Part shown: piece after piece, positions 16,981-52,830 of the stretch
Position numbering within the stretch: position 1 is the stretch's first letter
Layout of the letters: every line of letters begins with the position of its first letter
NCBI RefSeq assembly: GCF_000156195.1
Contig: NZ_GG688324.1
Span: 119,030 to 183,029 of the forward strand
Source: Bacteroides finegoldii DSM 17565
GTDB taxonomy: Bacteria > Bacteroidota > Bacteroidia > Bacteroidales > Bacteroidaceae
Length of the DNA: 64,000 nucleotides
Direction of reading: 5' to 3'
Position numbers and translations under genes: made by a program
The notes under the pieces: generated by a model
The model's input: only the letters and a program-made list of their open reading frames with translations
What the model was told of the DNA's origin: nothing
Databases searched by the model: none

Positions 16981-18081
16981 ATGGAAACAAATAATCGTAG
17001 AGATTTTCTAAAAAAGGCGGCCTTGGCCGGAGCGTCAGCTTTGGTGGCTCCTTCTTTATTTGCTACCGGTGAAGAGGGGAGTGAAATATCTATTCTTAAA
17101 AATGAGGAGAATGGTTTGGAGAATAATTTAATTGTTCCTAAAAATAATGGTCTGAAAATAACAGGAACTTTTCTGGATGAAATCTCCCATGACATTCCTC
17201 ATCAGAATTGGGGAGAAAAAGAATGGGATATGGATTTCCAACACATGAAAAAGATTGGAATAGATACGGTGGTAATGATTCGTTCCGGTTATCGGAAATT
17301 TATAACTTATCCTTCACCTTATTTATTAAAAAAAGGATGCTATATGCCATCAGTTGATTTGGTAGATATGTATTTGCGTCTTGCTGCTAAATATAATATG
17401 AAGTTTTATTTTGGTTTATATGATTCAGGACGATATTGGGATACGGGTGATTTAAGTTGGGAGATTGAGGATAATAAATATGTGATAGACGAAGTCTGGA
17501 AAATGTATGGAGAGAAGTATAAAAGTTTTGGAGGCTGGTACATTAGCGGAGAAATTAGCCGGGCAACCAAAGGCGCAATCGATTCATTTTATACAATGGG
17601 AAAGCAATGTAAAGATGTTTCGGCCGGGCTTCCTACTTTTATTTCTCCTTGGATTGATGGCAAGAAGGCGATTATGGGAACAGGTAAACTGACAAAAGAA
17701 GATGCAGTTTCTGTACAACAACACGAAAAAGAATGGAATGAAATTTTTGATGGTATTCATGAGGTGGTAGATGCATGTGCTTTTCAAGATGGACATATTG
17801 ATTATGATGAATTGGATGCTTTCTTTTCTGTCAATAAAAAATTAGCAGATAAGTATGGGATGCAATGCTGGACAAATGCCGAATCTTTTGATCGTGATAT
17901 GCCTATTCGTTTTCTACCCATTAAGTTTGATAAACTTCGGATGAAATTGGAAGCTGCCAAGCGTGCCGGATATGATAAGGCTATAACCTTTGAATTTTCT
18001 CATTTTATGAGTCCGCAATCTGCTTACTTGCAAGCAGGGAATTTGTATAACAGATATATAGAATATTTTGAAATAAAATAA
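16981..18081 (+). CDS. Tat-exported DUF4434 protein, putative TIM-barrel glycoside hydrolase
   Basis: The 366-residue protein starts with a twin-arginine signal (RRDFLKK, then a hydrophobic segment to about residue 28), so it would be exported folded. The rest resembles the DUF4434 family, with the opening GLKITGTFLDE and a TIM-barrel-like alternation. Two glutamates sit where clan GH-A barrels keep their catalytic pair: Glu191 in YISGEIS and Glu301 in TNAESF. I know no proven activity for the family. It is the first gene of the PUL A operon and overlaps no neighbour; the sugar porter follows after 4 bases. A cofactor-free barrel using Tat export is somewhat unusual. Confidence 0.75.
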   Translation: METNNRRDFLKKAALAGASALVAPSLFATGEEGSEISILKNEENGLENNLIVPKNNGLKITGTFLDEISHDIPHQNWGEKEWDMDFQHMKKIGIDTVVMIRSGYRKFITYPSPYLLKKGCYMPSVDLVDMYLRLAAKYNMKFYFGLYDSGRYWDTGDLSWEIEDNKYVIDEVWKMYGEKYKSFGGWYISGEISRATKGAIDSFYTMGKQCKDVSAGLPTFISPWIDGKKAIMGTGKLTKEDAVSVQQHEKEWNEIFDGIHEVVDACAFQDGHIDYDELDAFFSVNKKLADKYGMQCWTNAESFDRDMPIRFLPIKFDKLRMKLEAAKRAGYDKAITFEFSHFMSPQSAYLQAGNLYNRYIEYFEIK

Positions 18082-18085
18082 TATT

Positions 18086-19492
18086 ATGCAATCTACTATT
18101 AATTTTGGCTATCTTATATTCCTTTCTGTTGTGGCTGCTTTGGGCGGTTTTTTGTTCGGATATGATACGGCAGTTATATCCGGTACAATTGCTCAGGTTA
18201 CTCAGCTTTTTCAACTGGATGCATTGCAGCAGGGATGGTATGTAGGGTGTGCGTTGGTCGGTTCAATCATTGGAGTCCTTTTTGCCGGTATTTTGAGTGA
18301 TAAATTAGGGAGAAAATTGACTATGGTTATTTCTGCTATTCTCTTCTCCGCATCGGCTTTAGGATGTGCTCTCTGTACGGATTTTACGCAATTAGTGGTG
18401 TATCGTATAATTGGGGGTGTCGGGATAGGCGTTGTTTCCATAGTGTCTCCTCTTTACATTTCGGAAGTTTCAGTAGCACAGTATAGAGGGCGTTTAGTCT
18501 CTTTATATCAACTGGCTGTGACCGTTGGCTTCTTAGGAGCTTATCTGGTTAATTATCAGTTGTTGGCTTGGTCGGAAAGTGGTGCTTTATTGGGTGTTCC
18601 TCTATTAAATAAGATATTTATAACTGAGGTATGGAGAGGTATGTTAGGTATGGAAACGTTACCTGCGATATTATTCTTTATAATCATATTTTTCATACCG
18701 GAGAGTCCTCGTTGGTTAATTGTACGAGGGCAGGAGAGAAAGGCTATAAATATTCTGGAGAGAATCTATAATTCGATTACAGAAGCAACGAACCAATTGA
18801 AAGAAACTCAATCAGTTTTGACTGCTGAAACAAGCTCAGAATGGTCGTTATTGATGAAACCCGGCATTTTGAAGGCAGTAATTATAGGTGTATGCATTGC
18901 TATTTTGGGACAATTTATGGGAGTCAATGCGGTGCTTTATTATGGTCCTTCTATTTTTGAGAATGCAGGACTTTCAGGAGGTGATTCTCTTTTTTACCAA
19001 GTTCTGGTAGGACTAGTCAATACTTTGACCACGGTTCTGGCTCTTGTCATAATCGATAAGGTGGGCCGCAAGAAGCTGGTTTATTATGGAGTTTCGGGAA
19101 TGGTTGTTTCTCTGATTCTCATCGGCCTGTACTTCCTCTTCGGAGATTCCCTGGGAGTATCCAGCCTCTTCCTGCTTGTTTTCTTCCTGTTCTATGTATT
19201 CTGCTGTGCCGTATCCATCTGTGCCGTGGTGTTTGTACTCCTCTCGGAGATGTATCCCACCAAGGTTCGCGGACTGGCCATGTCGATAGCAGGATTCGCT
19301 CTCTGGATCGGAACGTACCTGATCGGACAGTTAACCCCCTGGATGCTCCAGAACCTTACCCCCACCGGAACATTCTTCCTGTTCGCGCTCATGTGTGTGC
19401 CGTATATGCTCATCGTATGGAAACTAGTCCCGGAAACGACCGGGAAGTCACTGGAGGAAATTGAAAGATACTGGAACCGTTCGGAACAGTAA
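18086..19492 (+). CDS. MFS sugar porter
   Basis: This 468-residue inner-membrane transporter of the sugar porter family has twelve predicted helices. Family motifs are visible: GGFLFGYDTAVISG at the first helix, DKLGRK after helix 2, PESPRWL before the central loop, and PETTGKSLEEIE at the C-terminus. The cargo is likely a monosaccharide from the PUL, possibly an amino sugar given the adjacent epimerase. Base composition changes inside the gene: the first two thirds are AT-rich, while from about 19060 the sequence becomes GC-rich. The last 160 codons are nearly repeated, inverted, at 52324-52830. Confidence 0.88.
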   Translation: MQSTINFGYLIFLSVVAALGGFLFGYDTAVISGTIAQVTQLFQLDALQQGWYVGCALVGSIIGVLFAGILSDKLGRKLTMVISAILFSASALGCALCTDFTQLVVYRIIGGVGIGVVSIVSPLYISEVSVAQYRGRLVSLYQLAVTVGFLGAYLVNYQLLAWSESGALLGVPLLNKIFITEVWRGMLGMETLPAILFFIIIFFIPESPRWLIVRGQERKAINILERIYNSITEATNQLKETQSVLTAETSSEWSLLMKPGILKAVIIGVCIAILGQFMGVNAVLYYGPSIFENAGLSGGDSLFYQVLVGLVNTLTTVLALVIIDKVGRKKLVYYGVSGMVVSLILIGLYFLFGDSLGVSSLFLLVFFLFYVFCCAVSICAVVFVLLSEMYPTKVRGLAMSIAGFALWIGTYLIGQLTPWMLQNLTPTGTFFLFALMCVPYMLIVWKLVPETTGKSLEEIERYWNRSEQ

Positions 19493-19526
19493 AAAAGATC
19501 ATATTAACTTAACACTTTAAAGATAT

Positions 19527-20750
19527 ATGGATTTTAAAAAACTATCGGACCAATACAGGGATGAATTGTTGAACAATGTTCTTCCTTTTTGGCTTCAAAA
19601 CTCTCAAGACAAAGAGTTTGGCGGCTATTTCACCTGTCTGGATCGTGAAGGCAAAGTATTCGATACAGACAAGTTTATCTGGCTGCAAGGGCGTGAGGTA
19701 TGGATGTTCTCCATGCTTTACAATAAGGTGGAGAAACGCCAGGAATGGCTGGACTGTGCCGTTCAAGGTGGCGAATTCTTAAAGAAATACGGACATGACG
19801 GAAATTACAACTGGTACTTTTCCCTCGACCGTTCGGGTAGACCGTTGGTAGAACCGTATAACATTTTCTCCTATACTTTTGCGACAATGGCTTTCGGACA
19901 ATTGAGTTTGGCAACCGGTAATCAGGAGTATGCCGATATTGCCAGAAAGACATTCGATATTATCTTGTCCAAAGTTGATAATCCTAAAGGAAAATGGAAC
20001 AAGCTTCATCCTGATACACGCAATCTAAAGAATTTTGCTCTGCCGATGATTCTATGCAATCTCGCTATGGAAATAGAGCATATTTTAGGTAAAGACTACT
20101 TGGAACGAGCTATGAACACTTGCATCCATGAAGTTATGGACGTCTTTTATCGTCCCGAACTTGGTGGAATCATTGTCGAAAATGTAGATATAAACGGTAA
20201 TCTTGTGGATTGTTTTGAGGGTCGCCAGATTACTCCCGGTCACGCGATTGAAGCGATGTGGTTTATCATGGATCTGGGTAAACGTCTGCATCGTCCGGAA
20301 CTGATAGAGAAAGCAAAAAACACGACTTTTACCATGCTTGAATACGGTTGGGATAAGGAGCATGGCGGTATCTTTTACTTTTTAGATCGTAACAGTTTTC
20401 CTCCCCAACAATTGGAATGGGACCAGAAACTCTGGTGGGTACATATCGAATCTTTAATTTCATTGTTAAAAGGCTATCAGTTGACAGGAGACAAACAGTG
20501 TTTGGATTGGTTTGAAAAAGTACATGATTATACATGGGCACACTTTAGGGACGCTGAATATCCGGAATGGTACGGATACTTGAATAGAAGAGGCGAAGTA
20601 TTGTTACCCTTGAAAGGTGGTAAATGGAAAGGATGTTTTCATGTACCTAGAGGACTGTTTCAATGCTGGAAAATACTAGAAACTATTTCGCTACAAACAT
20701 TTCCCGGATTATTAAATATTGCTGAAACACAATTTAAATCTATTTACTAA
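19527..20750 (+). CDS. N-acylglucosamine 2-epimerase (AGE), copy A
   Basis: The 407-residue (alpha/alpha)6-barrel enzyme interconverts N-acetylglucosamine and N-acetylmannosamine. The catalytic residues His239 (PGHAIEAM), Glu308 (VHIE) and His372 (CFHVPR) fall at the same numbers I recall for the cyanobacterial AGE. This favours the N-acyl sugar over the cellobiose epimerase branch. It is about 90% identical by eye to the copy at 51110-52282. The two diverge abruptly after residue 388: copy A has a foreign 19-residue tail rich in Phe, Leu and Asn. It follows the sugar porter by 34 bases and precedes susC by 10. No neuraminate lyase is present in the window. Confidence 0.87.
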   Translation: MDFKKLSDQYRDELLNNVLPFWLQNSQDKEFGGYFTCLDREGKVFDTDKFIWLQGREVWMFSMLYNKVEKRQEWLDCAVQGGEFLKKYGHDGNYNWYFSLDRSGRPLVEPYNIFSYTFATMAFGQLSLATGNQEYADIARKTFDIILSKVDNPKGKWNKLHPDTRNLKNFALPMILCNLAMEIEHILGKDYLERAMNTCIHEVMDVFYRPELGGIIVENVDINGNLVDCFEGRQITPGHAIEAMWFIMDLGKRLHRPELIEKAKNTTFTMLEYGWDKEHGGIFYFLDRNSFPPQQLEWDQKLWWVHIESLISLLKGYQLTGDKQCLDWFEKVHDYTWAHFRDAEYPEWYGYLNRRGEVLLPLKGGKWKGCFHVPRGLFQCWKILETISLQTFPGLLNIAETQFKSIY

Positions 20751-20760
20751 ATTCAAAATT

Positions 20761-23700
20761 ATGAAACAATGGACCTTAAACATGTCTAAATACCATCGCG
20801 GAATTTTAGACTCAAAAAAAGGACTACAATGTATGATGCTGTGTATTGCATTATTAGCACCTAGCTATGCTACAGCAAGTACAAATGTAGGGAACGAGCA
20901 AAAATCATTCTATGAAGTAACACAACCTTTGTCAATGATGAAAGAGACATCAAACGTTTCTCCAATTGACAATTCTGTTCGTGGAACAATTATTGATGAA
21001 AAAGGTGTTCCTCTACCCGGTGTCAGTGTTGCAATTAAAGGCACATCCACTGGTGTGATTTCAGATATTAATGGTTATTACATTATTAACGCAAAAGCAG
21101 GAGATATTCTAGTATTCTCGTTTGTAGGCTTCAAATCGCAAGAAATCACAGTCGGTAAGAAACCGGCTCTTGACATCGTAATGAAAGAAGATGTACACGA
21201 ACTGGAAGAAACGGTTATTGTCGGTATGGGTAAACAACGGAAAGCCAGCGTTATAGGTTCTATCTCTTCTGTTTCAATAAAGGAACTGGAAGTACCGCAA
21301 CGAAATCTGACTAACGCTCTTTCCGGACGTATTGCCGGTGCAGTGGTCGTACAACGTTCAGGTGAACCAGGACAAGACAATGCTGATTTCTGGGTACGTG
21401 GTATCTCTTCGTTCGGAGCTAATCAAAAACCATTAGTATTAGTTGACGGAGTGGAACGGGATATGTCTGATTTGTCAATTGAAGAAGTAGAATCCATTTC
21501 TATCTTGAAAGATGCATCGGCAACGGCAGTATATGGTGTGCGCGCAGCCAATGGAGTTGTATTGGTAACTACCCGTAAGGGGGTTGCCCAAAAACCGGTC
21601 ATAGAAGTAAAATTGGAAACAGGTTTCTCCGATCTCCCGACAATGCCGAAGTTATTGGACGGGGTCAATTACGCATTGCTAGCCAATGAAGCATTGGGTA
21701 CTGAAAATTATACTCCGGAGTACATAGACAATTTGAGAAGTGGAACCAATCCTTTTCTATATCCGAATGTAAACTGGATGGATCAACTTTTCCGCAAGTA
21801 TTCAACTAATACGAATGCAGCCATCAATATTCGTGGAGGTGGCGAAAGAGCACGTTATTATATTAGTGCCAGTTTTATAGAAGATAACGGTAACTTGAAA
21901 AATAATCCGGAAGCGGATTACAAATCAAACATTTCACTTCGTCGATATAACTTTCGATCAAACATTGATTTGACATTGACTAAAACAACCAATTTATCAT
22001 TAGAAATAGGTGCCAATATGACAGATATGCATCAACCCGGTTTAGGAAATGAGTATGTAGACAACAGATGGTTCAGCCCTGTTGAATTACTTTATTACTA
22101 TTCCTATTTATCCAATCCATTATCCGCTCCGGTTCGGGTACCTATCGGAAAAGATGCGTTTGGTAATACAGAATGGGGTTGGGGAGCACCATCACAGGTC
22201 GGTGAAGTGAATCCGGCAGAACGTTTGTTTGGCTCTGGATATAATAAATCATTCCGCTCACAAATCATGAGCCAGATTACATTAAAACAAGACTTGAGTT
22301 TCTTATTAAAGGGCCTTGACATACAAGCTTCTTTCTCTTTCGATGCCAATAATCAGACCATACAGAACAGACGCAAAAATTCTTCTACCTATAACATAAC
22401 GGGAGTTGACGATGAAACCGGAGAATTTCAAGTAGCGGAAATTACCAAAGGAAATGAATTCTTGGGATACAATGTAACTCCATCCAGTAACCGCGCCGAA
22501 GAACTGAAAGTGCAATTGAATTATAATCAGATTTTCAATGAAACACACCGCATCGGTGCAATGGCGATGTATTATCAGCGTGACTACGTAGACCAGACTG
22601 CCGGATCGTCTATTAAATCATTGCCCTATAAAAAGCAAGGTCTGGCTTTAAGAACAACTTATGCTTTCAAAGACCGTTACTTTGCTGAATTTAATATGGG
22701 ATATAATGGCTCGGAGAACTTTCCGAAAGGAAAACGTTTTGGTCTATTTCCGGCAGGAGCATTAGGGTATTTGATATCCAATGAGTCTTTCTGGCCTTTT
22801 AAAGCTATAAATGTATTAAAAGTCAGAGGCTCTGTTGGTCTGGTAGGTTCCGAATCATTGCCTGACAATATGCGTTTCGGTTATCTGTCATATTTTGGTG
22901 AAGGTTTAGGAGGATACTATTTCGGTATGGCCCCTAGCTTTCACGAAGGTATCGGAGAAGACCAAATCGGAGTAGCTGATCTGACTTGGGAGAAAGGTTT
23001 TAAGAAAGATATCGGTATTGAACTGAAAATGTTCGATAGCATGGTTTCTCTGGATCTTGACTACTTCCACGAAAAACGTTCCGATATTCTTATTCAACGT
23101 CAGTCTGTTCCTGCAACCATGGGAGTCATCAAACAGCCCTTTGCTAATATGGGTGTAATGGTGAATCAAGGTATAGACGGTACGTTGGAATTTAACCATT
23201 CAATTGGAGATTTCCGTTATAAACTCTATGGAAACTTCACCTACACTCATAATGAAATTAAAGAAATGGATGAAGCTCAGAAAAAATATGCATACCGTAT
23301 GCAAACGGGACATCGTTACGGACAGCATTTTGGGCTAATTGCCTTAGGATTATTTCAAGACCAAAAAGAGATCAATGAAAGTCCTGAACAGAAATTCGGT
23401 GATGTACGTCCAGGTGATGTAAAATATTTGGATTATAACGAAGATGGCGTAGTAGATGAAGATGATAAATGTCCGATCGGTTATTCAAGTGTTCCGGAAA
23501 TTGTTTATGGTTTTGGAGCTCAGCTTTTCTGGAAAGGATTCGACTTCGGTATTTTCTTCAGAGGACAGGCACATGTTACTTACGGTCTAGGGGGGGATAC
23601 ATTCATTCCATTCAATAAAGGAGTAGGGAAAGGTAACTTATTTGAAAAAGCACTTGACCGTTGGACGGAAGATAATCCTAATCCCAATGCATTCTATCCC

Positions 23701-23979
23701 CGTCTGTCCAATGGAGCTTCATCCAACAACTGGCAATCATCTACGCGTACCATTTATAATGGCCGTTTGCTGCGCTTGGCCGATCTGGAACTCGGATATA
23801 CTTTCAAGAAAAACTGGATTGCTCCAATTGGCATGAAATCTCTTCGCATCTATTGCTTGGCGAATAATGTCGCATTGTTTGCACCATGGGATATGTGGGA
23901 CCCGGAAACAGCTTCATTTAATGGTAGCAAATATCCTCTCCCGAGAAAAGTTAATATTGGAATTAGAGCTTCTTTTTAA
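20761..23979 (+). CDS. SusC-like TonB-dependent transporter, PUL A
   Basis: This 1072-residue outer-membrane transporter imports glycan pieces with its SusD partner. It has an unusually long N-terminal stretch before the carboxypeptidase-D-like domain (about residues 75-150, VRGTIIDEKGVPLPGVSV). The plug follows (VRGISSFG, LVDGVERDMSDL, ILKDASATAVYGVRAANGV), and then the 22-strand barrel ending in NIGIRASF. The frame opens at a TTG inside the epimerase gene; the ATG at 20761 fits the spacing of the operon. A run of seven G occurs at 23590-23596. It is clearly divergent from the PUL B SusC. Confidence 0.93.
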   Translation: MKQWTLNMSKYHRGILDSKKGLQCMMLCIALLAPSYATASTNVGNEQKSFYEVTQPLSMMKETSNVSPIDNSVRGTIIDEKGVPLPGVSVAIKGTSTGVISDINGYYIINAKAGDILVFSFVGFKSQEITVGKKPALDIVMKEDVHELEETVIVGMGKQRKASVIGSISSVSIKELEVPQRNLTNALSGRIAGAVVVQRSGEPGQDNADFWVRGISSFGANQKPLVLVDGVERDMSDLSIEEVESISILKDASATAVYGVRAANGVVLVTTRKGVAQKPVIEVKLETGFSDLPTMPKLLDGVNYALLANEALGTENYTPEYIDNLRSGTNPFLYPNVNWMDQLFRKYSTNTNAAINIRGGGERARYYISASFIEDNGNLKNNPEADYKSNISLRRYNFRSNIDLTLTKTTNLSLEIGANMTDMHQPGLGNEYVDNRWFSPVELLYYYSYLSNPLSAPVRVPIGKDAFGNTEWGWGAPSQVGEVNPAERLFGSGYNKSFRSQIMSQITLKQDLSFLLKGLDIQASFSFDANNQTIQNRRKNSSTYNITGVDDETGEFQVAEITKGNEFLGYNVTPSSNRAEELKVQLNYNQIFNETHRIGAMAMYYQRDYVDQTAGSSIKSLPYKKQGLALRTTYAFKDRYFAEFNMGYNGSENFPKGKRFGLFPAGALGYLISNESFWPFKAINVLKVRGSVGLVGSESLPDNMRFGYLSYFGEGLGGYYFGMAPSFHEGIGEDQIGVADLTWEKGFKKDIGIELKMFDSMVSLDLDYFHEKRSDILIQRQSVPATMGVIKQPFANMGVMVNQGIDGTLEFNHSIGDFRYKLYGNFTYTHNEIKEMDEAQKKYAYRMQTGHRYGQHFGLIALGLFQDQKEINESPEQKFGDVRPGDVKYLDYNEDGVVDEDDKCPIGYSSVPEIVYGFGAQLFWKGFDFGIFFRGQAHVTYGLGGDTFIPFNKGVGKGNLFEKALDRWTEDNPNPNAFYPRLSNGASSNNWQSSTRTIYNGRLLRLADLELGYTFKKNWIAPIGMKSLRIYCLANNVALFAPWDMWDPETASFNGSKYPLPRKVNIGIRASF

Positions 23980-23991
23980 AACACATCGAAT

Positions 23992-26013: not shown

Positions 26014-26030
26014 TAAAAAAGTATATAGTT

Positions 26031-27269: not shown

Positions 27270-27362
27270 CATTCAATAACTTTTAGATGGTTGGTAGAGC
27301 TGTATAATACTATCAGCCATCTAATTACATTTCATAAACTACATAACTTCACAAAATTGATT

Positions 27363-42101: not shown

Positions 42102-42170
42102 TGTTTTATTATGTTTAAATAATCGTTTGAATATCGTTTAAATGGAATTAAAAATAACATTAGGTACCGT

Positions 42171-44039: not shown

Positions 44040-44069
44040 ATTATCTACTTATTTAGATGGTAACCATAA

Positions 44070-45764
44070 TTATTTCCAACTAGGAGTTTGCTCACACATT
44101 ATGTTATTTCGAAGCTCGCTGGAAGGTATCGGGAAAATATTATATTTCTTGGGGAACTTACGATCCTGCGTGTCACATTCTACACGGGTATAAAGAAAGC
44201 TTGAACCGGTTTTTTCAATTTTGATACCATGCAGTCGTTGCCCATTGAGTACCTTTTGAGCAATATCCCAACGAACAAGATCATACCAACGATGTCCTTC
44301 GAGTCCCAATTCACATACCCGTTCCTTCGAGAGATCTTCAAGATAATTGTCCCAGGTAGACTGCTGAGCTAAAATAGGCAATCCCACACGAGTACGAATT
44401 TTGTTGAGATAGTCGTAAGCTTCCTTAAACTTATCCAAACGGGCATAGGCCTCGGAAAGGATAAGAACAATCTCGGCATAACGCATCTCAATCCAGTAGG
44501 ATGTACTTTCAATGTCTACGTAGTTGATATTGTCGCTTTCATCCATAAATTTACGGAAGATATAACCGGTGGTACTAGTGCGCACATAGTCCTGGCTTGC
44601 CGATGTAGAGAAATCCATGTATCCGTCTTTACCACCTACGTAAAGTTCAAGTTGACGTCCTGTCCAATTGGCACCATTATAGAGAATAGAAGCATAGAAA
44701 CGTGGGTCGCGGTTTCCCCATGGTCCTTCGGAATATTCATTCAAATGAGTCCAATCAAACGATTTCCAGTCCTTACCTACCTTGATATCAAATGCAGAAG
44801 CATACTCATCGGTAGGCGTAGCGGCTGCGCCCAACGTACCAGGTTGTAAGCCTGCTTTTTCTGTGTCATAGGGTGGGCAGAAGAAATGATTAAACATGTG
44901 TTGCTTAGTCTTCTGTTGAAAATAGACAGGCAAAATTAACTCCTTATTATTCACAGTATTGAAAATTTGCATATAGCTGTCCTTAGAAGTTCCTGAAAGT
45001 AGTTGATATACACCCTTTTTCTCCAGCTTTTCTACCTCTAATGCTGCATTAACAGCATCCTGCCAACGCTTGGCATAGAGAGCGGCACGGGCTTTCATGC
45101 CATAAGCAGCCCCCTTTGTAAGGCGGCCTGCCTCCGATCCTGTCCATTCTTCCGGTAGGATTTGGGCTGCTTTTTCATATTCGTCAAGGATAAAAGTCCA
45201 GCAATCTTCTTCTGACGAACGAGCTTTTGCACGCTGGTTATGATCATCCACTCGATCTTCGTTGATACGCAGGATTACACCGCCATGACGCAATACCAGC
45301 TCTTGATAAGCAAAAGCACGCATAAAACGAACTTCGGCAGTTCGAATGGCTAACTGATCGGAATCCAAATTATCAGCAAAGCCACTATGAACATCGTAAA
45401 AATACTCATTAAACCGGCGAATCTGCTCGTACATGTCATCCCAATTAGAGCGATAATTAGCATCAGGACTCATCATATTGTCGTAATAAAAAAGTTTGTT
45501 CACGCTACCCTCAGCTACATTGAACCAAGAATATTTAATGAGGTCACTCACACCATCGTCCATGGCCAGATTAGCTCCCACATTGATATCGGCATTGCTA
45601 TAAAACACGTTATAGAAACTTTTGACATAAAGATCCAGGTTCTTTATAGAAGCATAGGCTGTAGATTCGCTATAAGTGTCAGTAGGATCGATATCGAGCA
45701 CATTACACGATTGCAATGTGAGGGTCGACAGAGCCAATCCCAGTAATAGATTTTTTGTTTTCAT
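44070..45764 (-). CDS. SusD-like outer-membrane lipoprotein, PUL B
   Basis: This 564-residue SusD/RagB protein has lipobox TLQSC (Cys20), the early YSESTAYASIKNL segment, the helix-rich EVRFMRAFAYQELVLRHGG stretch and the C-terminal SKERVCELGLEGHRWYDLVR motif followed by IFPIPSSELRNN. It forms the lid of the adjacent SusC pore. Length is typical. It lies 34 bases after susC and 30 before the SGBP gene in the minus-strand operon. Confidence 0.93.
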   Translation of the reverse strand: MKTKNLLLGLALSTLTLQSCNVLDIDPTDTYSESTAYASIKNLDLYVKSFYNVFYSNADINVGANLAMDDGVSDLIKYSWFNVAEGSVNKLFYYDNMMSPDANYRSNWDDMYEQIRRFNEYFYDVHSGFADNLDSDQLAIRTAEVRFMRAFAYQELVLRHGGVILRINEDRVDDHNQRAKARSSEEDCWTFILDEYEKAAQILPEEWTGSEAGRLTKGAAYGMKARAALYAKRWQDAVNAALEVEKLEKKGVYQLLSGTSKDSYMQIFNTVNNKELILPVYFQQKTKQHMFNHFFCPPYDTEKAGLQPGTLGAAATPTDEYASAFDIKVGKDWKSFDWTHLNEYSEGPWGNRDPRFYASILYNGANWTGRQLELYVGGKDGYMDFSTSASQDYVRTSTTGYIFRKFMDESDNINYVDIESTSYWIEMRYAEIVLILSEAYARLDKFKEAYDYLNKIRTRVGLPILAQQSTWDNYLEDLSKERVCELGLEGHRWYDLVRWDIAQKVLNGQRLHGIKIEKTGSSFLYTRVECDTQDRKFPKKYNIFPIPSSELRNNIMCEQTPSWK

Positions 45765-45798
45765 GCTAATTTATTTTATTAGATGTTGTACATAGGGT

Positions 45799-48700
45799 TT
45801 AGAACGTTACGTCTACACCAAACGTAAAGGTGCGTTGCTGCGGATAGTAACCTTGAATGACATTGGCCGACTCTGGGTCGAGGTACTTAAACTCGGTGAG
45901 AGTAAAAAGGTTGTGGCCGCTGGCAAACAGACGAAGATTGCTGATACCGGATTTCTTTACCCATGACTGTGGCAAGGTGTATCCCAAAGTCACATTCTTG
46001 AGGCGTACGTAAGCACCATTACGCTTCCAGAAGTCAGATACCTGCGCATTATTAGCATAAGCTACTGTACTGAGACGCGGATATTCAGCATTGGTATTGT
46101 CAGGACGCCAGCTGTTCTCCACCAAGTAGTAAGGCGCGTTATCCCATCCGGCATAGAAAGGGCGCGTAAGTGGAGTCTGGTCACGTGCACCGTTGTTCCA
46201 TTCGCCACAAAGCAACTTGTCGCACAAGGCAGCACCTTGCAACTGAACAGAGAGGTCGAACCCTTTCCAGTTGGCGTCGGCCATCAACGAGAACATCATC
46301 TCAGGCGTGGTGGGGCGTGCAATCTTTACCTCATCGTCCCAGCTAATGAGTCCATCACCATTATAATCAAGGTAACGGATGTCACCCAATCGGGGAGTTT
46401 CGCTGATGGGTAATGGAGCTGCGTCAATCTCGGCTTGTGTCTGATACAGACCTAGCGATTTCAACCCCCAAATGGACCCTACCGATGTTCCCAGACGGTT
46501 CTGCCAAGGTTTAGTATTGTCAGCCTGCGTCATACGCAGTATTTTATTGCGGGCAAACGAAAGGTTACCATTCAAGCTGTAATTGAATTTGCCAATGTGA
46601 TTACGGTGTTTTACTGTCATCTCGAATCCACGGTTATCAAATGTACCACTGTTTTCAATACTCGGATAATGGCCTCCCAGCGAAGGAGGATATACACCGC
46701 CAATGGAACGAAGGATATCGTAAGTATATTTGTAGAAAACATCGAACTCAATGCCCAAAAGACCATTCCATGCCGAAAGTTCGAAACCAACGTTGATAGA
46801 ACGACATTTTTCCCAAGTAAGATTCTCCATCGGGTAAGATACTTTATTATACAGAGTATTCACCGCTTGTGGAGTAGTACCGAAAACTGTACTGTTTTTG
46901 GCCCATGCGTACTGTTTGCGATAGAGGAAAGGATCAACATTGTCGCTACCTAAGATACCGAAAGAGGCTCTTAACTTGAAGCGTTCCACTTGAGGAAAGA
47001 GTTCTTTGAAAAAATCCTCTTCAGAAGCAACCCAGCCCAATGAAGCCGATGGGAAGAATCCCCAGCGATTACCCTTTTTAAAGTGATAAGAGCCATCGTA
47101 CCGGAAAGTAAATTCAGCCAAATAACGGTTATTATAAGCATAGTTGAAACGACCAACATAACCGGCATAGCCCTGGCGGATGCTGCTGGAAAAGTTACCA
47201 TCGGTGGGATGAATAGTAGAGCCAAAGGGTAACTCGTCAATATCGAGAAGTGCGAAATCGGAGCGATAGCCTGTCAGCGTATTTCCTTTACGCTCAGTCT
47301 GTTCATAAAGGAATAGTGCACCTACATCATGTAAACCAAACTTTTGGTTGTATGAGATAGAAGGGCGTAATACTACTTGCTGTTCTTTCTCGTCACCGAC
47401 TGACATCCCCCCTGTTGGCTGCAGATTAGAAGCATATTGACGTACATATTTCTTGGACTCGGGTTTATAAAGCATTAATTCGTAAGAGTATTTGAAGCTG
47501 CGTGAATCACGATCTTGCCAGTCCCAACCCACAAACATACCAGCTTTCAAACCTTTGAGGAAGGGGAAAGAGTATTCTATCTTGGCCGATGTCTCCAGAC
47601 GCATGGTGCGCGTTTTACTATAGCCCGAATGTCCAGCTGCATACTCAGGATTGGAAGCACCACGATAACCAGATGTCGGCATCCCTTCATATTCGAGTGG
47701 AACAAACGGAGCGGCATAAAGCAATACCCCCACCACATTATTCGTCGTTTGATTCTCATAACTGTCGCCACCTGGCTGATAATAGTCGTTAATTTTACCG
47801 GCCACGTTAAGTGACACACTGATATCTTTGGTTACTTGCGTATCGATATTCGAACGAAAGTTACCACGTTCCAGCTCAAAACCTTTAATGAAGCCATTCT
47901 GTTTCATAAATCCGCCACTGAGGAAGTAACGGGTTTTCTCGTTGCCACCACTGATAGAAAGATTGTGCTGATGCATTAAAGTAGTACGATAAATAGGTTC
48001 CTGCCAATCGGTATTTTCAAAGCCATCGGTAGGATCTCCATTGGTAGTCATGGCAATTTCTTCATCGGTAAAGTAGGCTTTCTCACCATCCATGCGACGA
48101 GCATAGTTATACCACTGCATATAGTGTGTACCATTCATAAACTTGGGTAGCGTAGTAGCATGTGACAAAGTGAGCGACCCTTTATAATTAATGGCAGTTT
48201 TGCCCTCTGTTCCTCGTTTGGTAGTGACCAATATTACACCTGCAGCAGCTTTCATTCCATACACAGCACACGAGGCGGCATCTTTTAATATAGTAACTGA
48301 TTCCACTTCATTGGGATTGATATACGCCATGCTTCGTTCTACACCATCTACCAGAATAAGGGGGCCATCACCTCCATTATATGTAGAATGTCCACGAACC
48401 AACAATGAAACATCATCAGCTCCCGGGGCTCCGGTGGCTTGTTGAGATATCAATCCCGGCAACTTGCCGACCAAGGCTTGCGAAACGTTGCTTGTTGTTG
48501 ACTTCAATAATTCTTTAGAAGATACCGAAGATATTGATCCTGTAAGATGGATCTTTTTCTGAGTACCATAACCGACTACTACCACCTCGTCGAGGCTATT
48601 AATGTCTTCTTGAAGGGTAACATTGATCATAGAACGGCTGTTAACTTTTACCTCTTGTGTTATCATACCTATATATGATAGTACTAATGTAGCAGACCTG

Positions 48701-48927
48701 GGTGCATTCAAGGTAAAATGACCATTAAGATCAGTAGTTGTGCCCGTTGCGCTCCCCTTTACGGTCACACTGACTCCGGGTAACGGCAACCCTGTCGCAT
48801 CTATGACGACTCCATTGACTGTACTTTGCGCATAACTATTCGATGCGCATACAAAAAGTATTGTTAATGAGAAGAATAATATTCTCATAGAACAAAAACG
48901 ACCTTTTTGCATAGCTTTGTGTTTCAT
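45799..48927 (-). CDS. SusC-like TonB-dependent transporter, PUL B
   Basis: The 1042-residue outer-membrane transporter has a signal peptide ending NSYAQ near residue 34. A carboxypeptidase-D-like domain (VNGVVIDATGLPLPGVSV) follows, then the TonB box-like region DEVVVVGYG, the plug (VRGHSTYNG, ILVDGVERSM, ILKDAASCAVYGMKAAAGV) and a barrel ending in FGVDVTF. Its sequence differs strongly from the PUL A SusC, indicating a different imported glycan. It is preceded by the 712-residue lipoprotein gene with a 37-base gap. Confidence 0.94.
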   Translation of the reverse strand: MKHKAMQKGRFCSMRILFFSLTILFVCASNSYAQSTVNGVVIDATGLPLPGVSVTVKGSATGTTTDLNGHFTLNAPRSATLVLSYIGMITQEVKVNSRSMINVTLQEDINSLDEVVVVGYGTQKKIHLTGSISSVSSKELLKSTTSNVSQALVGKLPGLISQQATGAPGADDVSLLVRGHSTYNGGDGPLILVDGVERSMAYINPNEVESVTILKDAASCAVYGMKAAAGVILVTTKRGTEGKTAINYKGSLTLSHATTLPKFMNGTHYMQWYNYARRMDGEKAYFTDEEIAMTTNGDPTDGFENTDWQEPIYRTTLMHQHNLSISGGNEKTRYFLSGGFMKQNGFIKGFELERGNFRSNIDTQVTKDISVSLNVAGKINDYYQPGGDSYENQTTNNVVGVLLYAAPFVPLEYEGMPTSGYRGASNPEYAAGHSGYSKTRTMRLETSAKIEYSFPFLKGLKAGMFVGWDWQDRDSRSFKYSYELMLYKPESKKYVRQYASNLQPTGGMSVGDEKEQQVVLRPSISYNQKFGLHDVGALFLYEQTERKGNTLTGYRSDFALLDIDELPFGSTIHPTDGNFSSSIRQGYAGYVGRFNYAYNNRYLAEFTFRYDGSYHFKKGNRWGFFPSASLGWVASEEDFFKELFPQVERFKLRASFGILGSDNVDPFLYRKQYAWAKNSTVFGTTPQAVNTLYNKVSYPMENLTWEKCRSINVGFELSAWNGLLGIEFDVFYKYTYDILRSIGGVYPPSLGGHYPSIENSGTFDNRGFEMTVKHRNHIGKFNYSLNGNLSFARNKILRMTQADNTKPWQNRLGTSVGSIWGLKSLGLYQTQAEIDAAPLPISETPRLGDIRYLDYNGDGLISWDDEVKIARPTTPEMMFSLMADANWKGFDLSVQLQGAALCDKLLCGEWNNGARDQTPLTRPFYAGWDNAPYYLVENSWRPDNTNAEYPRLSTVAYANNAQVSDFWKRNGAYVRLKNVTLGYTLPQSWVKKSGISNLRLFASGHNLFTLTEFKYLDPESANVIQGYYPQQRTFTFGVDVTF

Positions 48928-48964
48928 AAGTTAGAAGTTTATTAATAATATGTATATATTTTAT

Positions 48965-51103
48965 TTAAAGTTGGCGTGTTATCATTTCCTCAATTACTTT
49001 AGTGGCAACAGTAGAAACATCTTTTTGGTTAGCAATATCCCATAATGATGAATCTTCTTCAAGAACAAACTGTGTACCCACAATCCAACTCTGAATCCAT
49101 CCGGTAAGAGTGCTCCATACCCCCCATCCGGCATCAGCATTCGAAGCCCAATAATTCCAATCTTCGTAATTGAAAGCCCTGAACCATGCACCATCTATGC
49201 TCTTGAATTTATCACTACGTACTTGAATACGAATCAAAAAATCGCGCATTTGATTTACAGCCTTTATGTAAGTAGCATCCTGAGTTGCCTTAGCTGCTTC
49301 ACACAGACCCACAAAGGCAAAGTTTGTTGTATAAAGCATATCAGCAACCGGATCGCCATTGTCAAAAATTAGTGGTGCTTCGTTGTTGCCATATTCCGCA
49401 TTGGAAGGAGTACGTCCAAAAAGACTTTTTGACTCATCACCCAGTTCTTCGCGAATACCTCCACAAGGCACTTGATTTCTAAGAAGTTCATTTGTCATAA
49501 AATGCAGCCAATCCAAGTGTTCCTCTGTTGGTTCCACCCGATAGAGCCATGCTAGCGGCAGAATCATACGGGCACGTTCTTGTTGAATTCCATTAGTCCA
49601 CGACCACTGTTCCGGATATCCTTCCATCATCATAGTTATTCCACGTTTCACACGTTCAAGCAGTGGCTGATAATGTGTTTGATTATAAAGCCAAAGATAG
49701 CAAGCCCAATTCCAAGCCTCAAAGTGAGCATGCAGATTTACCAGGTTAGCATTATAGTATGATTTCCATCCGCGTTTCTGTAAATCAGACTCAAGAATAT
49801 TTTGTCCTCTAAATCCATTTAATCCCGTAGTACGGAAATTACCTACAATGCCCTCAACAATTTGCTTATCCCATTTAGGGTTATTCATCAATGCTGATGA
49901 AGCGATAGAACCTAATAATGAACGGGCATTATCATCGCCATAATAAGTGCCTTTATGTGTATAAGCCCATCCTAATAGACCATATGATGGGGATTTTGGA
50001 TCATTGCGTACTGAATCTCTATATTCAGTGAATGAATAGTCGAGTAAATTGGCAGCTACCTTTGTATATTGTGAATTATCCAGTAATGTACCGGCAGCAG
50101 CAAAAGCGAACGAAGTTTCTCCTTGAACATCATCACGCATCCAGTAACGATACATCTGCGCACCGTCATATTTAATACCTGACATATGCCCTTCCAATAC
50201 ACCCAACGAACCATCACCATCAGGCATGTCAGCTGGCAATTCAGGACCAACCGGCATCAAACCATCACCCATATACTGATCTGCCCAATCTTTTTTCCAA
50301 GAAGGATGCACCAAGAAGTGACCATTATAATACCATTCCACTCCCTTAGCAATACTTTGTTTTCCAGCCTCCTCTGGTAACGGCTCGGTAGCAGTATAGG
50401 ATGGTGACACATATGTCAACCAAGAAGAAAATGTTACACCTTCTTTATGCAGCAACCAGTTCATAATATATTCAAACATAGACTGCACACGCTGCTCAGG
50501 AAGATAACGACAAACTGCAAAATTACTGATACTAGTAGCAGCTACCATCAACTGATTATTCTGCTGATACAACAATGGATGGACCGGTGTATTGGCCAAG
50601 CCATATACCGCTTTATCAAAACCTGCTACCCTAGCAGCTACCAAATACGTACTATCAGGTGTTAAATCCAATTCCTTCAACACGCATCGGTGAAAAGCCA
50701 TCAAAGCCATAGAAGGAAGTTGAGGAGTTAGTGAATCACAAACCACTATCCGCTCCAGTTCCATGGTATCCGTCTTTACACACAAATGTTCACCGATCTG
50801 CTGAGGAAAGTCCATGAAAACACGCAGAGACTTCGATTGAATCAAGGCTAAATCCTCGCTTGTCACCACTGTACCCTGTTCTGGATAAGAAGGACAAAGC
50901 AATAAAACCGGAGCCTGCTCTGAAGCTATCCGAAGAGCCTCTGTTACAGAAGTACAGAAATGTAATTGATATCCCTCATCTGTCAACAACTGAGCCAGAT
51001 TGCTATGTGCATCGCCATAACACACAATCTTCTCCTTCTTCACTCCACAAGAGAATAAGAACAGACAAAAAAATAGGATTGATATAATTCTTAATTTATT
51101 CAT
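48965..51103 (-). CDS. Uncharacterised 712-residue lipoprotein, six-hairpin-barrel-like
   Basis: I do not recognise a named family. The lipoprotein (lipobox FLFSC, Cys19) has an N-terminal alpha/beta region (about 25-210) with short hydrophobic strands (KIVCYGD, VLLLCPSYP, LRVFMDFP) like a Rossmann or amidotransferase-type fold. A long helical region (about 250-700) is rich in Trp, Tyr and acidic clusters (KGVEWYYNG, MRDDVQGE, YYGDDNARSLLG, NLHAHFEAWNW, WSWTNGIQQE), reminiscent of (alpha/alpha)6-barrel glycosidases. It lies between the epimerase (6-base gap) and susC and has no counterpart in PUL A. A glycan-active role is inferred. Confidence 0.6.
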   Translation of the reverse strand: MNKLRIISILFFCLFLFSCGVKKEKIVCYGDAHSNLAQLLTDEGYQLHFCTSVTEALRIASEQAPVLLLCPSYPEQGTVVTSEDLALIQSKSLRVFMDFPQQIGEHLCVKTDTMELERIVVCDSLTPQLPSMALMAFHRCVLKELDLTPDSTYLVAARVAGFDKAVYGLANTPVHPLLYQQNNQLMVAATSISNFAVCRYLPEQRVQSMFEYIMNWLLHKEGVTFSSWLTYVSPSYTATEPLPEEAGKQSIAKGVEWYYNGHFLVHPSWKKDWADQYMGDGLMPVGPELPADMPDGDGSLGVLEGHMSGIKYDGAQMYRYWMRDDVQGETSFAFAAAGTLLDNSQYTKVAANLLDYSFTEYRDSVRNDPKSPSYGLLGWAYTHKGTYYGDDNARSLLGSIASSALMNNPKWDKQIVEGIVGNFRTTGLNGFRGQNILESDLQKRGWKSYYNANLVNLHAHFEAWNWACYLWLYNQTHYQPLLERVKRGITMMMEGYPEQWSWTNGIQQERARMILPLAWLYRVEPTEEHLDWLHFMTNELLRNQVPCGGIREELGDESKSLFGRTPSNAEYGNNEAPLIFDNGDPVADMLYTTNFAFVGLCEAAKATQDATYIKAVNQMRDFLIRIQVRSDKFKSIDGAWFRAFNYEDWNYWASNADAGWGVWSTLTGWIQSWIVGTQFVLEEDSSLWDIANQKDVSTVATKVIEEMITRQL

Positions 51104-51109
51104 TATTCT

Positions 51110-52282
51110 TTATTTTTGACTAATTGCTTCCAATGTTTTCCAGCACTGATACAAGCCTCTAGGTACGTGGAAACAGCCTTTCCATTTTCCTCCTTTTAAT
51201 GAAAGTAACACTTCACCGCGGCGGTTCAGATAACCAAACCATTCAGGGTGTTCCTGATCCTTGAAGTGTTCCCAAGTATAGTTGTGCACCTTTTCGAACC
51301 ATTCCAGGCACTGTTTGTCTCCTGCAAATTGATATCCTTTTAATAAAGAAATAAGCGTCTCGATATGCACCCACCAAAGTTTCTGGTCCCATTCCAACTG
51401 TTGTGGTGGATAGCCATCACGATCCATGAAATAATAGATACCTCCATATTCTTTATCCCAACCATATTCAAGCATCGTAAGAGTGATGTTCTTAGCCTTT
51501 TCGATTAACTCCGGACGGTTTAGGCGTTTCCCCAAATCCATGATAAACCACATGGCTTCAATCGCGTGACCAGGGGTAATCTGCCGTCCTTCAAAGCAAT
51601 CTATTAGATTACCATTCACATCTACATTCTCAACAATGATTCCACCAAGTTCGGGGCGAAAAAAGACGTCCATCACTTCATGGATGCAGGTATCCATAGC
51701 CTGTTCTAGGTAATCTTTCCCTAAAATATGCTCTATTTCCATAGCAAGATTGCAAAGAATCATCGGCAGGGCAAAGTTCTTCAAATTGCGGGTTCCCAGG
51801 TGAAGTTTGTTCCATTTGCCTTTCGGATTATCCACTTTAGACAGGATGATATCGAAGGTTTTCCTGGCAATGTCTGCATATTCCTGATTGCCGGTAGCAA
51901 GACTTAGCTGACCGAAAGCCATGGCAGCGAATGTATATGAAAAGATATTGTATGGTTCTACCAATGGTCTACCCGAACGGTCAAGGGAAAAATACCAGTT
52001 ATAGTCTCCATTATGTCCATATTTTTTTAAAAATTCACCACCTTGAACGGCACAATCCAGCCATTCCTTACGTTTTTCCACTTTATTGTAAAGCATGGAA
52101 AACATCCACACCTCGCGGCCTTGCAACCAGATAAACTTATCCGTATCGAAAACTTTTCCTTCACGGTCCAAACAGGTGAAATAGCCGCCAAACTCTTTGT
52201 CTTGAGAGTTTTCAAGCCAGAAAGGAAGAACATTATCCAAGAGTTCATCCTTGTATTGATTTGCCAGTTTCTTAAAATCCAT
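51110..52282 (-). CDS. N-acylglucosamine 2-epimerase (AGE), copy B
   Basis: The 390-residue enzyme is collinear with copy A through residue 388 without gaps, with roughly 39 substitutions by eye. It keeps His239, Glu308 and His372. It has the normal family length, ending CWKTLEAISQK, while copy A has an added tail. It should interconvert GlcNAc and ManNAc in the cytoplasm. It is followed after 6 bases by the 712-residue lipoprotein gene and preceded by a fragment of the sugar porter gene in the same order as PUL A. Confidence 0.87.
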   Translation of the reverse strand: MDFKKLANQYKDELLDNVLPFWLENSQDKEFGGYFTCLDREGKVFDTDKFIWLQGREVWMFSMLYNKVEKRKEWLDCAVQGGEFLKKYGHNGDYNWYFSLDRSGRPLVEPYNIFSYTFAAMAFGQLSLATGNQEYADIARKTFDIILSKVDNPKGKWNKLHLGTRNLKNFALPMILCNLAMEIEHILGKDYLEQAMDTCIHEVMDVFFRPELGGIIVENVDVNGNLIDCFEGRQITPGHAIEAMWFIMDLGKRLNRPELIEKAKNITLTMLEYGWDKEYGGIYYFMDRDGYPPQQLEWDQKLWWVHIETLISLLKGYQFAGDKQCLEWFEKVHNYTWEHFKDQEHPEWFGYLNRRGEVLLSLKGGKWKGCFHVPRGLYQCWKTLEAISQK

Positions 52283-52323
52283 ACATCTTTTATTATTAAG
52301 TTATTAAGGTCTTTTTTGTTTTA

Positions 52324-52830
52324 CTATTCCGAACGGGTCCAATATCTTTCAATCTCCTCCAGCGACTTCCCGGTGGTCTCCGGCACGAGTTTCCAGACAA
52401 TCAGCATATACGGTACGCACATGACGGCGAACAGGAAGAATGTTCCGGCGGGGGTAAGGTTTTGGAGCATCCAGGGGGTTAACTGTCCGATCAGGTACGT
52501 TCCGATCCAGAGAGCGAATCCTGCTATTGACATGGCCAGCCCGCGAACTTTGGTGGGATACATCTCCGAGAGAAGCACGAACACTACAGCGCAGATAGAC
52601 ACGGCACAACAGAATACATAGAACAGGAAGAAAACAAGAAGGAAGAGGCTTGAGACATTCAGGGAATCTCCAAAGAGGAAATAAAGGCCGATGAGAATCA
52701 AAGAGACAACCATTCCCGAAACTCCGTAATAAACCAGCTTCTTACGACCAACTTTATCAATGATGACAAGAGCCAAAATGGTGGTCAAAGTATTAACAAG
52801 TCCTACCAGAACTTGGTAATAGAGAGAAAG
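52324..52830 (-). pseudogene. 3' fragment of an MFS sugar porter gene
   Basis: The fragment matches about the last 160 codons of the sugar porter at 18086-19492, from SLFYQVLVG to the PETTGKSLEEIERYW end, with long identical DNA runs. Upstream of about 52830 the similarity stops and an unrelated frame runs to a stop codon. The only in-frame start-like codon is a TTG at 52788, inside a helix. It lacks about seven of the twelve helices and cannot be a transporter. It marks the edge of an inverted duplication that includes the epimerase. Confidence 0.88.

Follow-up and report, generated by a model that had tools for sequence, protein, structure and literature searches.

The locus described here raises the question of why two PULs face each other between matching ends: was one gene set copied in inverted orientation, or do the ends frame sets of separate origin? 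The window (the whole 64,000-nt stretch that was analysed, from Bacteroides finegoldii, genome G000) holds a head-to-head pair of different host-glycan PULs, framed by two copies of one common gene block. According to self-comparison of the window and Pfam, both PULs are convergent and read inward from an inverted repeat; the mirror proper extends from 18985 to 52828, with a repeat-bounded interior of about 33 kb. Both arms are PULs by their content, a SusC gene next to a SusD gene plus glycan-active enzymes (GH3, GH109, GH89), and Pfam places Plug and CarbopepD_reg in both SusCs and SusD_RagB in both SusDs. The features are as follows.

15394-16686, minus strand: ROK-family regulator, fixed left flank, likely start near 16602 (Pfam ROK 1.8e-57, HTH_24)
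16843-16866, plus strand: AT-rich palindrome, candidate ROK/NanR operator (by conservation; putative function)
16981-18081, plus strand: DUF4434 protein of the fixed left flank, not part of the repeat (Pfam 6.1e-90); still on the left in sister species G106
18086-19492, plus strand: full-length sugar porter, MFS (Pfam Sugar_tr 1.3e-109; TIGR00879)
18985-20687, plus strand: left inverted repeat, porter 3' end and epimerase (83.5% identity to 52828-51122)
19527-20750, plus strand: N-acylglucosamine 2-epimerase, left copy (Pfam 1.1e-86)
20719-32732, plus strand: cargo A, left slot, with SusC, SusD, DUF5000, DUF4855, GH3 and GH109 (Pfam)
32885-34214, strand not applicable: pivot, an insertion-sequence-like relic bounded by terminal inverted repeats of 32 nt (94%)
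34890-51103, minus strand: cargo B, right slot, with SGNH esterase, GH3, GH89, DUF4855, DUF5018, SusD, SusC and a 712-aa lipoprotein (Pfam)
51110-52282, minus strand: N-acylglucosamine 2-epimerase, right copy (Pfam 1.3e-86)
51122-52828, minus strand: right inverted repeat, porter fragment and epimerase (match to the left repeat)
52319-52839, minus strand: headless porter fragment, codons about 297-467 (homology to the porter 3' end)
52924-54576, plus strand: GH33 sialidase, fixed right flank (Pfam BNR families)

The SusC gene of cargo A likely starts at the ATG at 20761. The sole ORF named in the pivot relic (33388-34122, minus strand) matched no Pfam or NCBIfam family; the transposase label of the relic was given by eye, and the pivot of G106 is mostly of different sequence.

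The sequence-only reading had described the arms as an imperfect mirror image with the same genes in the same inward order. The convergence of two PULs from an inverted repeat is confirmed; a complete porter is absent from arm B, which also carries the 712-aa lipoprotein gene between epimerase and SusC and GH89 between DUF4855 and GH3. The SGBP, counted there as a shared gene, is DUF5000 in A and DUF5018 in B, which are different families with no blastp match between the two proteins at E <= 1e-3. The arm-specific genes are as listed then (Pfam), except that DUF4434 lies beyond the repeat, in the fixed left flank. The similarity figures were about right: at the protein level the epimerases are 90% identical (388 aa), GH3 70% and DUF4855 42%, and SusC (31%) and SusD (28%, over part of its length) are low. 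The 712-aa lipoprotein gave no match to Pfam, NCBIfam or solved structures, and a structure prediction from three sequences (pLDDT 36) was unusable.

In DNA, gene-scale similarity across the mirror is limited to the porter 3' end with the epimerase (83.5%, 1.7 kb), to GH3 (71%) and, in DUF4855, to a patch of 245 nt. The order SusC-SusD-SGBP is generic for PULs; duplication is therefore needed only for the porter 3' end and epimerase, and perhaps GH3. That a whole PUL was duplicated in inverted orientation, its import genes diverging and its core enzymes being conserved or re-homogenised, agrees with the epimerase and GH3 identities, with the conserved inward synteny and with a tree in which GH3-A and GH3-B are sisters (modest support, 93/93, on deep branches); GH3 may be a true mirror pair, and is the only candidate. 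The SusCs, however, have closer kin elsewhere than across the mirror, contrary to divergence of import genes after a PUL duplication: SusC-A is 56% identical to SusCs of loci in G142 and G125, where the epimerase is absent from the stretches compared, vs 31% to its mirror partner, and SusC-B is 65% identical to a SusC of G044. Phylogenies placing paired genes nearer to other loci than to each other had been named as grounds for abandoning the duplication, and the window epimerases behave in this way: the right copy groups with the left copy of G021 (support 98/95) and the left copy with the right copy of G106 (100/99). Mirror partners are thus nearest each other for GH3, weakly, and not for SusC (by identity) or epimerase (by tree). 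In addition, the SGBP families differ between the arms, the two arm interiors of any one of the 11 framed genomes have 0-18% of their DNA in common, arms re-pair between genomes, and the start of the porter fragment marks the outer end of the copied block. Duplication of the whole PUL is very unlikely and was rejected; what stands of the proposed old inverted duplication is its porter 3' end and epimerase.

The left repeat starts with the last 510 nt of the full porter. In arm B only the 3' end of the porter is present (about 170 codons, from codon about 297 of 468), with 89% DNA identity to the intact 3' end over 510 nt; it carries a TTG-started ORF of 154 aa (52324-52788), and no stop codons occur across the 480 nt compared. 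Between species, dN/dS is 0.064 for the fragment vs 0.059 for the 3' end of the intact gene. The homology of the fragment starts at the same point, and GH33 adjoins it, in 8/8 resolved frames. The closest solved relatives of the right epimerase are 6f04 and 2gz6, named GlcNAc 2-epimerases. Synonymous sites of the epimerase pair are saturated (dS 2.4), so the 90% identity reflects protein constraint and not recent conversion; dS is 0.53 for the porter 3' end pair, and the GH3 pair gives no estimate. In its long form of 135 nt, the porter-epimerase spacer folded with six weak pairs only and gave no conserved RNA, and Rfam had no match in the G106 stretch with one 135-nt spacer copy. A chance meeting of two unrelated PULs, each with its own epimerase, would fit SusC and SusD proteins that are unrelated beyond family level and an epimerase present in 65 of 399 family genomes. 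It has a negligible probability and was likewise rejected, on 1.7 kb of inverted homology that includes a truncated porter with one starting point in all resolved frames.

The frame, full porter-epimerase at one end and epimerase-porter fragment-GH33 sialidase at the other, was found in 11 of 158 genus genomes, with one genome sampled per species. Eight are resolved and give an orientation; the assemblies of G110, G059 and G001 are broken in the repeat, those of G110 and G059 with unanchored flanks. Conserved flanks with non-homologous PULs between them, as expected of a PUL-exchange site, characterise the eight resolved frames. Arm B is paired with A in the window genome and G106 and with W in G001, its block lying in the left slot in G106 and facing another arm in G001; W also stands opposite V in G044; and X is paired with Y (G021), Z (G110) or Z' (G059, G143). 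In G030, G149 and G154 the left arms agree over their inner 4.5 kb and the right arms at their SGNH end (88-93%), and the outer arm parts differ. G143 was left out of the count as a twelfth frame: its porter fragment has the usual start point, yet on that contig a W-type arm takes the place of GH33 before it, which gives no simple fit to the frame. As a direct-repeat contrast, two same-strand copies flank a PUL in G117, and G073 looks like a one-copy product of such an arrangement. Two G149 contigs with a duplicated region were considered as a double orientation and set aside; the arm is the same on both, they diverge past an IS-like repeat, and they are therefore uninformative on inversion.

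In the sister species the interior is turned around. G106 4369-21842 matches window 52303-34827 on the minus strand (94%), and G106 22956-36711 matches window 32761-18985, also minus (96%), between flanks that are collinear on the plus strand (left 97%; right piece, which runs into the repeat, 93%). The cargo A block thus occupies the right slot of G106, inverted, at 96%. Its genes are 96.5-98.1% identical to those of G106, except DUF5000 (82%), and the flanking genes 97-98.5%; this similar likeness indicates that cargo A was inherited and then flipped. The ratio of flank-linked to cargo-linked sites is 7:1 in the porter 3' end, 1:16 in the spacer and first 234 nt of the epimerase, 2:4 in the middle of the epimerase and 1:13 in its last third. 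On this sequence evidence a single inversion of the whole interior separates the two species, with its switch point inside the repeat. Misassembly of G106 might be suspected, with repeats 91-97% alike and other assemblies visibly broken there, but it is highly improbable: the locus lies within a 5.24-Mb contig, the repeats differ by 3-9% with a longest exact run of 218 nt, which ordinary long reads can span, and cargo-linked sites are distributed in the epimerase as expected of a true crossover. Both orientations were seen between G000 and G106 only. By the SGNH marker, 7/8 resolved frames share one orientation and a single flip is seen, so flipping is rare or selected against. A side-swap of X between G021 and G059/G110 was dropped as a second inversion, the assemblies of G059 and G110 breaking in the repeats. 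As the interior is turned around in a sister species, the mirror is better read as a docking frame for exchangeable sets than as one set copied twice.

Among 22 copies, compared also in trees, left and right porter 3' ends are closest within the genome in 6/8 resolved frames, and left and right epimerases in 3/8. Exact left-right runs reach 1688 nt in G149, 509 in G044 and 383 in G030; the window repeats are the most diverged of the eight (89% and 81%, with exact runs of 65 nt at most), and the window genome may therefore now flip poorly. Gene conversion evidently keeps the repeats alike in most species, and has not done so recently in the window genome; the suggested re-homogenisation thus holds across species for the repeats and fails as a recent event here. 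Exchange of cargo was judged against a single housekeeping gene, thrS. GH3-B is 99.2% identical to G001 vs 96.2% to sister G106, and thrS 87.9% and 98.9%, respectively; cargo W of G143 and G044 is 95.2% identical over 8.1 kb at a thrS identity of 89.1%. Cargo X of G021 and G110 has no excess similarity (98.4% vs 98.1% for thrS). Part of B, and W, well above thrS similarity, are accordingly taken to have crossed between species.

The ROK regulator is, from its neighbouring genes, the likely candidate counterpart of B. thetaiotaomicron BT0433, which is called NanR, a predicted ROK regulator, in Table 2 as available in PMC3878776. The palindrome at 16843-16866, accompanied by a -7-like TATATTTG at 16892-16899, is the sole window match at <=3 mismatches (0 in 100 shuffles) and recurs with 0-2 mismatches in the left flank of all nine framed genomes with flank sequence compared; no candidate operator was found on the right side. 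It may act as the ROK/NanR operator. No Bacteroides consensus promoter occurs between GH33 and the right epimerase in 8/8 right arms; the strict consensus is also absent from the two left flanks tested, which makes this a weak test. Since the NanR-like operator has only the left slot downstream of it, a flip would change which PUL shares the promoter and the intact porter. If this were a PUL-scale phase switch, frequent recombination within a strain would let a population express PUL A or B from the left promoter. In its favour are inverted repeats on either side of the segment, both orientations between sister species, repeats that are almost identical in several species (exact over up to 1688 nt) and a candidate operator on the left only. 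Such a switch is nevertheless unlikely: orientation is kept in 7/8 resolved frames, the window genome's own repeats have drifted apart, a Pfam/NCBIfam scan of 38 window proteins gave no recombinase family, although an invertase may be encoded elsewhere, and both B. thetaiotaomicron operons (see below) are reported as induced in the available text of PMC6989115. Doubtful, too, is a form in which RecA-type recombination between the porter 3' end/epimerase repeats flips the roughly 33 kb in living populations, choosing the PUL behind the ROK promoter (NanR-like, for sialic acid/GlcNAc) and the intact porter, and in which gene conversion keeps the repeats, among them a dead porter fragment that would serve solely as recombination substrate.

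The locus is probably a two-slot PUL docking locus, an inverted-repeat frame around two PULs, which are open to flipping or replacement by recombination, and with the ROK operator on the left only. Long ago, the porter 3' end and adjoining epimerase would have been copied in inverted orientation beside the sialidase gene. The fixed frame would then be ROK regulator, DUF4434, full porter, epimerase, slot 1 and slot 2 converging, epimerase, porter fragment and GH33, each slot taking one host-glycan PUL that closely adjoins the epimerase gene. Exchange may proceed by ordinary homologous recombination with no dedicated invertase, the 1.7-kb repeat presumably providing outer homology and often the SGNH/pivot stretch inner homology. 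An inverted frame would retain both PULs, since recombination between its ends can do no more than turn them round; between direct copies it would remove one. Counting against the docking reading, the epimerase is absent, at the cut-off, from 7 of 19 genomes whose thrS identity is 87% or more.

This docking arrangement would give a concrete physical answer to the open question in PUL exchange of what makes a site gain, pair and swap PULs. If flipping is frequent, species with near-identical repeats (G149, G044, G030) should give flip products by PCR. An inverted frame should retain both PULs and a direct one (G117) should lose one, and sister species should have different PULs under ROK control solely through the turned interior. 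Some assemblies break in the repeat and so hide orientation.

Repeats of invertible capsule loci are short; here, unlike there, the repeat is 1.7 kb of coding sequence. Invertible Bacteroides surface loci include capsule promoters, SusCD orthologs and larger segments moved into expression sites (PMC12632263, available part); inverted repeats, SusC/SusD among the targets and a one-sided expression site are shared with them, and the capsule loci differ in having a named invertase, no recombinase family having been found in the window. The B. thetaiotaomicron locus BT0433-BT0455, whose numbering runs inward through two operons, BT0453-BT0449 and BT0439-BT0443, and in which BT0438 is GH89, is most likely the same frame, matched by names and numbering alone; the available parts of PMC6989115, PMC8225759 and PMC3878776 describe no repeats, inversion or exchange there. 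Titles and abstract openings on PUL conversion, inversion, exchange, B. theta tags and NanR contain no description of the frame, in a coverage mostly without subscription papers. Exchange of Bacteroides PULs between conserved 'node' genes by homologous recombination was described by Pudlo et al. 2022 (PMC8845570), in whose main text, as available, 'inversion' has 0 occurrences. As far as that text goes, the two systems have in common a single chromosomal site where different PULs stand between conserved neighbouring genes, and interspecies exchange, with recombination in flanking homology proposed there; unlike that system, the present locus has inner flanks that are inverted copies of each other, two slots, and a possible flip within one genome.

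The two PULs of the window point towards each other and meet at a pivot near 33-34.8 kb. A repeat search of the window returned the following inverted pairs.

18985-19494 / 52319-52828, inverted, porter part, 89% identity
19519-20687 / 51122-52290, inverted, epimerase part, 82% identity
two GH3 stretches, inverted, 71-72% identity
a 104-nt DUF4855 patch, inverted
a 32-nt pair at the pivot, inverted

In blastn the porter and epimerase pairs form a single 1.7-kb block (83.5% identity), containing the 3' end of a sugar-porter gene and a GlcNAc-type 2-epimerase gene. The left porter is complete (468 aa). The right one lacks the codons before about 297 and is followed by a spacer of about 85 nt and a GH33 sialidase pointing outward. 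These genes are termed the frame here; its left slot holds cargo A (SusC to GH109) and its right slot cargo B (SGNH to SusC and a 712-residue lipoprotein).

The sequence-only reading had proposed an old inverted PUL duplication, and its identity figures proved about right: between left and right proteins, identity is 90% for the epimerase, 70% for GH3, 42% for DUF4855, 31% for SusC and 28%, over part only, for SusD. The shared gene order it described holds for the epimerase, present in both arms, but not for the porter, a mere fragment on the right, or for the surface-binding proteins (DUF5000 left, DUF5018 right). The left-right comparison gives a dS of 0.53 in the porter fragment and of 2.4 in the epimerase; no estimate was obtainable for GH3, DUF4855, SusC or SusD. 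As the epimerase value is saturated, the high protein identity reflects constraint, not recent copying, which speaks against recent conversion in the window. Among the best few candidates per genome, SusC-A has its closest match outside the sister species in G142 and G125 (56% identical); for SusC-B the closest, besides the sister species (G106) and G001, is in G044 (65% identical), where it belongs to a third copy of the porter-epimerase genes that has a single slot. Set against 31% across the mirror, these values contradict a common origin by duplication; judged by such comparisons, the import genes of the two arms are not duplicates. In a tree of 25 sampled rows, GH3-A and GH3-B form a sister pair; their support (93/93) falls just short of the 95/80 line, and their stems measure 0.29 and 0.42 changes per site. 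Either an old duplication or separate recruitment from one subfamily may account for this.

The right epimerase was used as query against 158 genomes of the genus, one per species, and matched in 44 at E <= 1e-140. Facing copies on the same contig within 40 kb were found in nine of the 158 (G000, which is the window's genome, G106, G044, G021, G127, G030, G149, G154 and G110). The frame was resolved in eight, with full porter and epimerase at one end and epimerase, porter fragment and GH33 at the other. In G110 both epimerases are cut at about codon 75 and the left flank lies elsewhere in the assembly, stopping at the repeat start, which we take as an assembly artefact. G059 and G001 hold the frame contents on contigs that end within the repeat, which brings the framed genomes to 11. 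A possible variant is seen in G143, where one contig carries arms X and Z' (arm types other than A and B are lettered V to Z') beside an epimerase, and another (G143:C48:10000-21351) carries the porter fragment, with its usual start, and the epimerase start, preceded by a W-type arm instead of GH33. Either a third arm linked on to the frame or a wrongly joined contig may explain this arrangement.

By thrS, the single housekeeping yardstick, 19 genomes are at least 87% identical to the window, including all 11 framed genomes and G143; the remaining seven lack the epimerase at the cut-off. No thrS match was obtained in 15 of 157 genomes searched, and these were left unplaced. A wider search of 399 family genomes (E <= 1e-200) matched the epimerase in 65; among the matches listed, at most the best four candidates per genome, there was no inverted close pair beyond G000 and G106, both part of that sample, and G313 has two copies on separate contigs. 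The porter-fragment homology starts at an identical TACCAAGTTCT, after a T-rich run, in all eight resolved frames, and the spacer between fragment and GH33 has diverged among them. One ancestral event best explains this common start and diverged outer spacer.

G106, whose thrS is 98.9% identical to that of the window, is collinear with it outside the repeats (97% left; 93% right, where the piece runs into the repeat). The interior is inverted: G106 4369-21842 corresponds to window 52303-34827 (94%) and 22956-36711 to 32761-18985 (96%). The left half reads ROK, DUF4434, porter, epimerase, lipoprotein and SusC(B) to SGNH(B), and the right half GH109(A) to SusC(A), epimerase, porter fragment and GH33. 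Across the four repeat copies, flank-linked sites outnumber cargo-linked sites 7:1 in the porter part; cargo-linked sites prevail by 16:1 over the spacer plus the opening 234 nt of the epimerase, by 4:2 in the middle of that gene and by 13:1 in its last third. This switch places the exchange near the porter end. Sites homogenised between the two G106 copies are even more numerous (porter part 46, spacer 3, epimerase 167). The inversion, the one clear case in the comparison, probably arose in G106, since SGNH ends the right arm in 7/8 resolved frames, G106 alone having it at the end of the left arm. The marker is imperfect, as the left side of G127 holds an additional SGNH fragment and each arm of G001 ends in one SGNH. 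An IS-like relic with 32-nt terminal inverted repeats occupies the pivot (32885-34214), where G106 has mostly different sequence; the pivot thus seems to collect insertions.

Re-homogenisation, also proposed earlier, was found in most other frames but, for recent times, not in the window. Left-right identity within a genome exceeds that to any foreign copy in 6/8 frames for the porter part (0.963-1.000; exceptions G000, 0.891, and G154, 0.896) and in 3/8 for the epimerase (G044, G030, G149). Left and right porter copies are sisters in G127 and G030 (strong support), G044 and G021 (weak) and G149 (identical copies); epimerase copies are sisters, all strongly, in G044, G030 and G149. The window's right epimerase groups with the left copy of G021 (98/95). 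Over the 480 nt compared, the headless fragment is free of stop codons in all eight genomes, and its between-species dN/dS (0.064) is close to that of the intact gene (0.059). With its start and first half missing, it most likely stays open through conversion from the intact copy; it could also have a function of its own. The porter-epimerase spacer occurs in short (about 38-45 nt) and long (about 135 nt) alleles, sometimes both in one genome (examined: G106 left, G044 and G127 both, G021 and G154 right); five long spacers share CATTCA..A.AC.T and a weak hairpin.

By blastn (E <= 1e-15), 0-18% of the DNA is common to the two interiors of a genome in the 11 framed genomes; the G143 stretch was treated as a single piece. 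Arm B is paired with A (G000, G106) or W (G001), W also faces V (G044), and X faces Y (G021), Z (G110) or Z' (G059, G143). G030 (B. bouchesdurhonensis), G149 (B. faecalis) and G154 share the left arm's inner 4.5 kb and the right arm's SGNH end (88-93%); the rest of the right arm is alike in G030 and G154 (88%), whereas that of G149 is Z-like. Their left arms differ in the outer part. The pattern fits exchange bounded outside by the epimerase repeat and inside by the pivot. GH3-B of the window is 99.2% identical to that of G001 and 96.2% to that of G106, against thrS values of 87.9% (G001) and 98.9% (G106), which points to exchange of cargo B across species. The cargo-B lipoprotein gives the same indication, with 96.8% identity for G106 against G001 but 87% for the window against G106. 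Likewise, cargo W of G143 matches the right arm of G044 at 95.2% over 8.1 kb (thrS 89.1%), indicating cross-species exchange. Cargo X gave no such signal (98.4%; thrS 98.1%).

The 712-aa lipoprotein (48965-51103) adjoins the epimerase, is strongly conserved in its C-terminal part, matched no known family and also occurs in arms of G106, G110, G154 and G001. DUF5000 (26031-27269) is 82% identical in DNA to that of G106, against 96-98% for the remaining cargo A genes, by either local replacement or fast evolution. Contigs C3 and C4 of the G149 assembly both carry over 10 kb of the locus, 100% identical, and part ways at an IS-like 1.6-kb repeat within a SusC gene.

Recombination between inverted repeats cannot remove the intervening DNA. 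In G117 two copies of the porter-epimerase genes in direct orientation enclose one PUL (G117:C4:203000-243000). Its relative G073 (G073:C1:5786000-5806000), 96% identical as far as the end of the first copy and 82% past the second, looks like a one-copy recombination product, though a change in either direction would fit.

A palindrome at 16843-16866 is found with 0-2 mismatches in the left flank of all nine framed genomes compared (G044 and G154 left out). The window has no second copy at up to 3 mismatches, and the framed interiors and right flanks fetched have nothing nearer than 5. The likely SusC start of arm A lies 10 nt past the epimerase stop and the epimerase-lipoprotein gap of arm B is 6 nt, distances that would hardly accommodate promoters of their own. 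Turning the interior would then be expected to bring the other PUL under the putative ROK-controlled promoter. No right-arm promoter was recognised in a weak test, left flanks likewise lacking a strict consensus. A Bacteroidales-1 RNA (suggested 6S-like; 179 bits) lies at 6713-6890.

The families of the frame genes (ROK regulator, porter, GlcNAc-type epimerase, sialidase and two GH20s) and of the cargo enzymes (GH89, GH109, GH3) suggest host amino-sugar glycans as substrates. In B. theta, Table 2 of PMC3878776 lists BT0433 as the predicted NanR, the ROK-type regulator for sialic acid and GlcNAc, and BT0438 is a GH89 (PMC8225759). In vivo induction and BT4338 dependence are described for the operons BT0453-BT0449 and BT0439-BT0443 (PMC6989115), and the BT0439 protein was found on galacto- and milk oligosaccharides (PMC5238430). 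From these accounts, the BT0433-BT0453 region is most likely the same frame as that of the window, with both arms evidently expressed.
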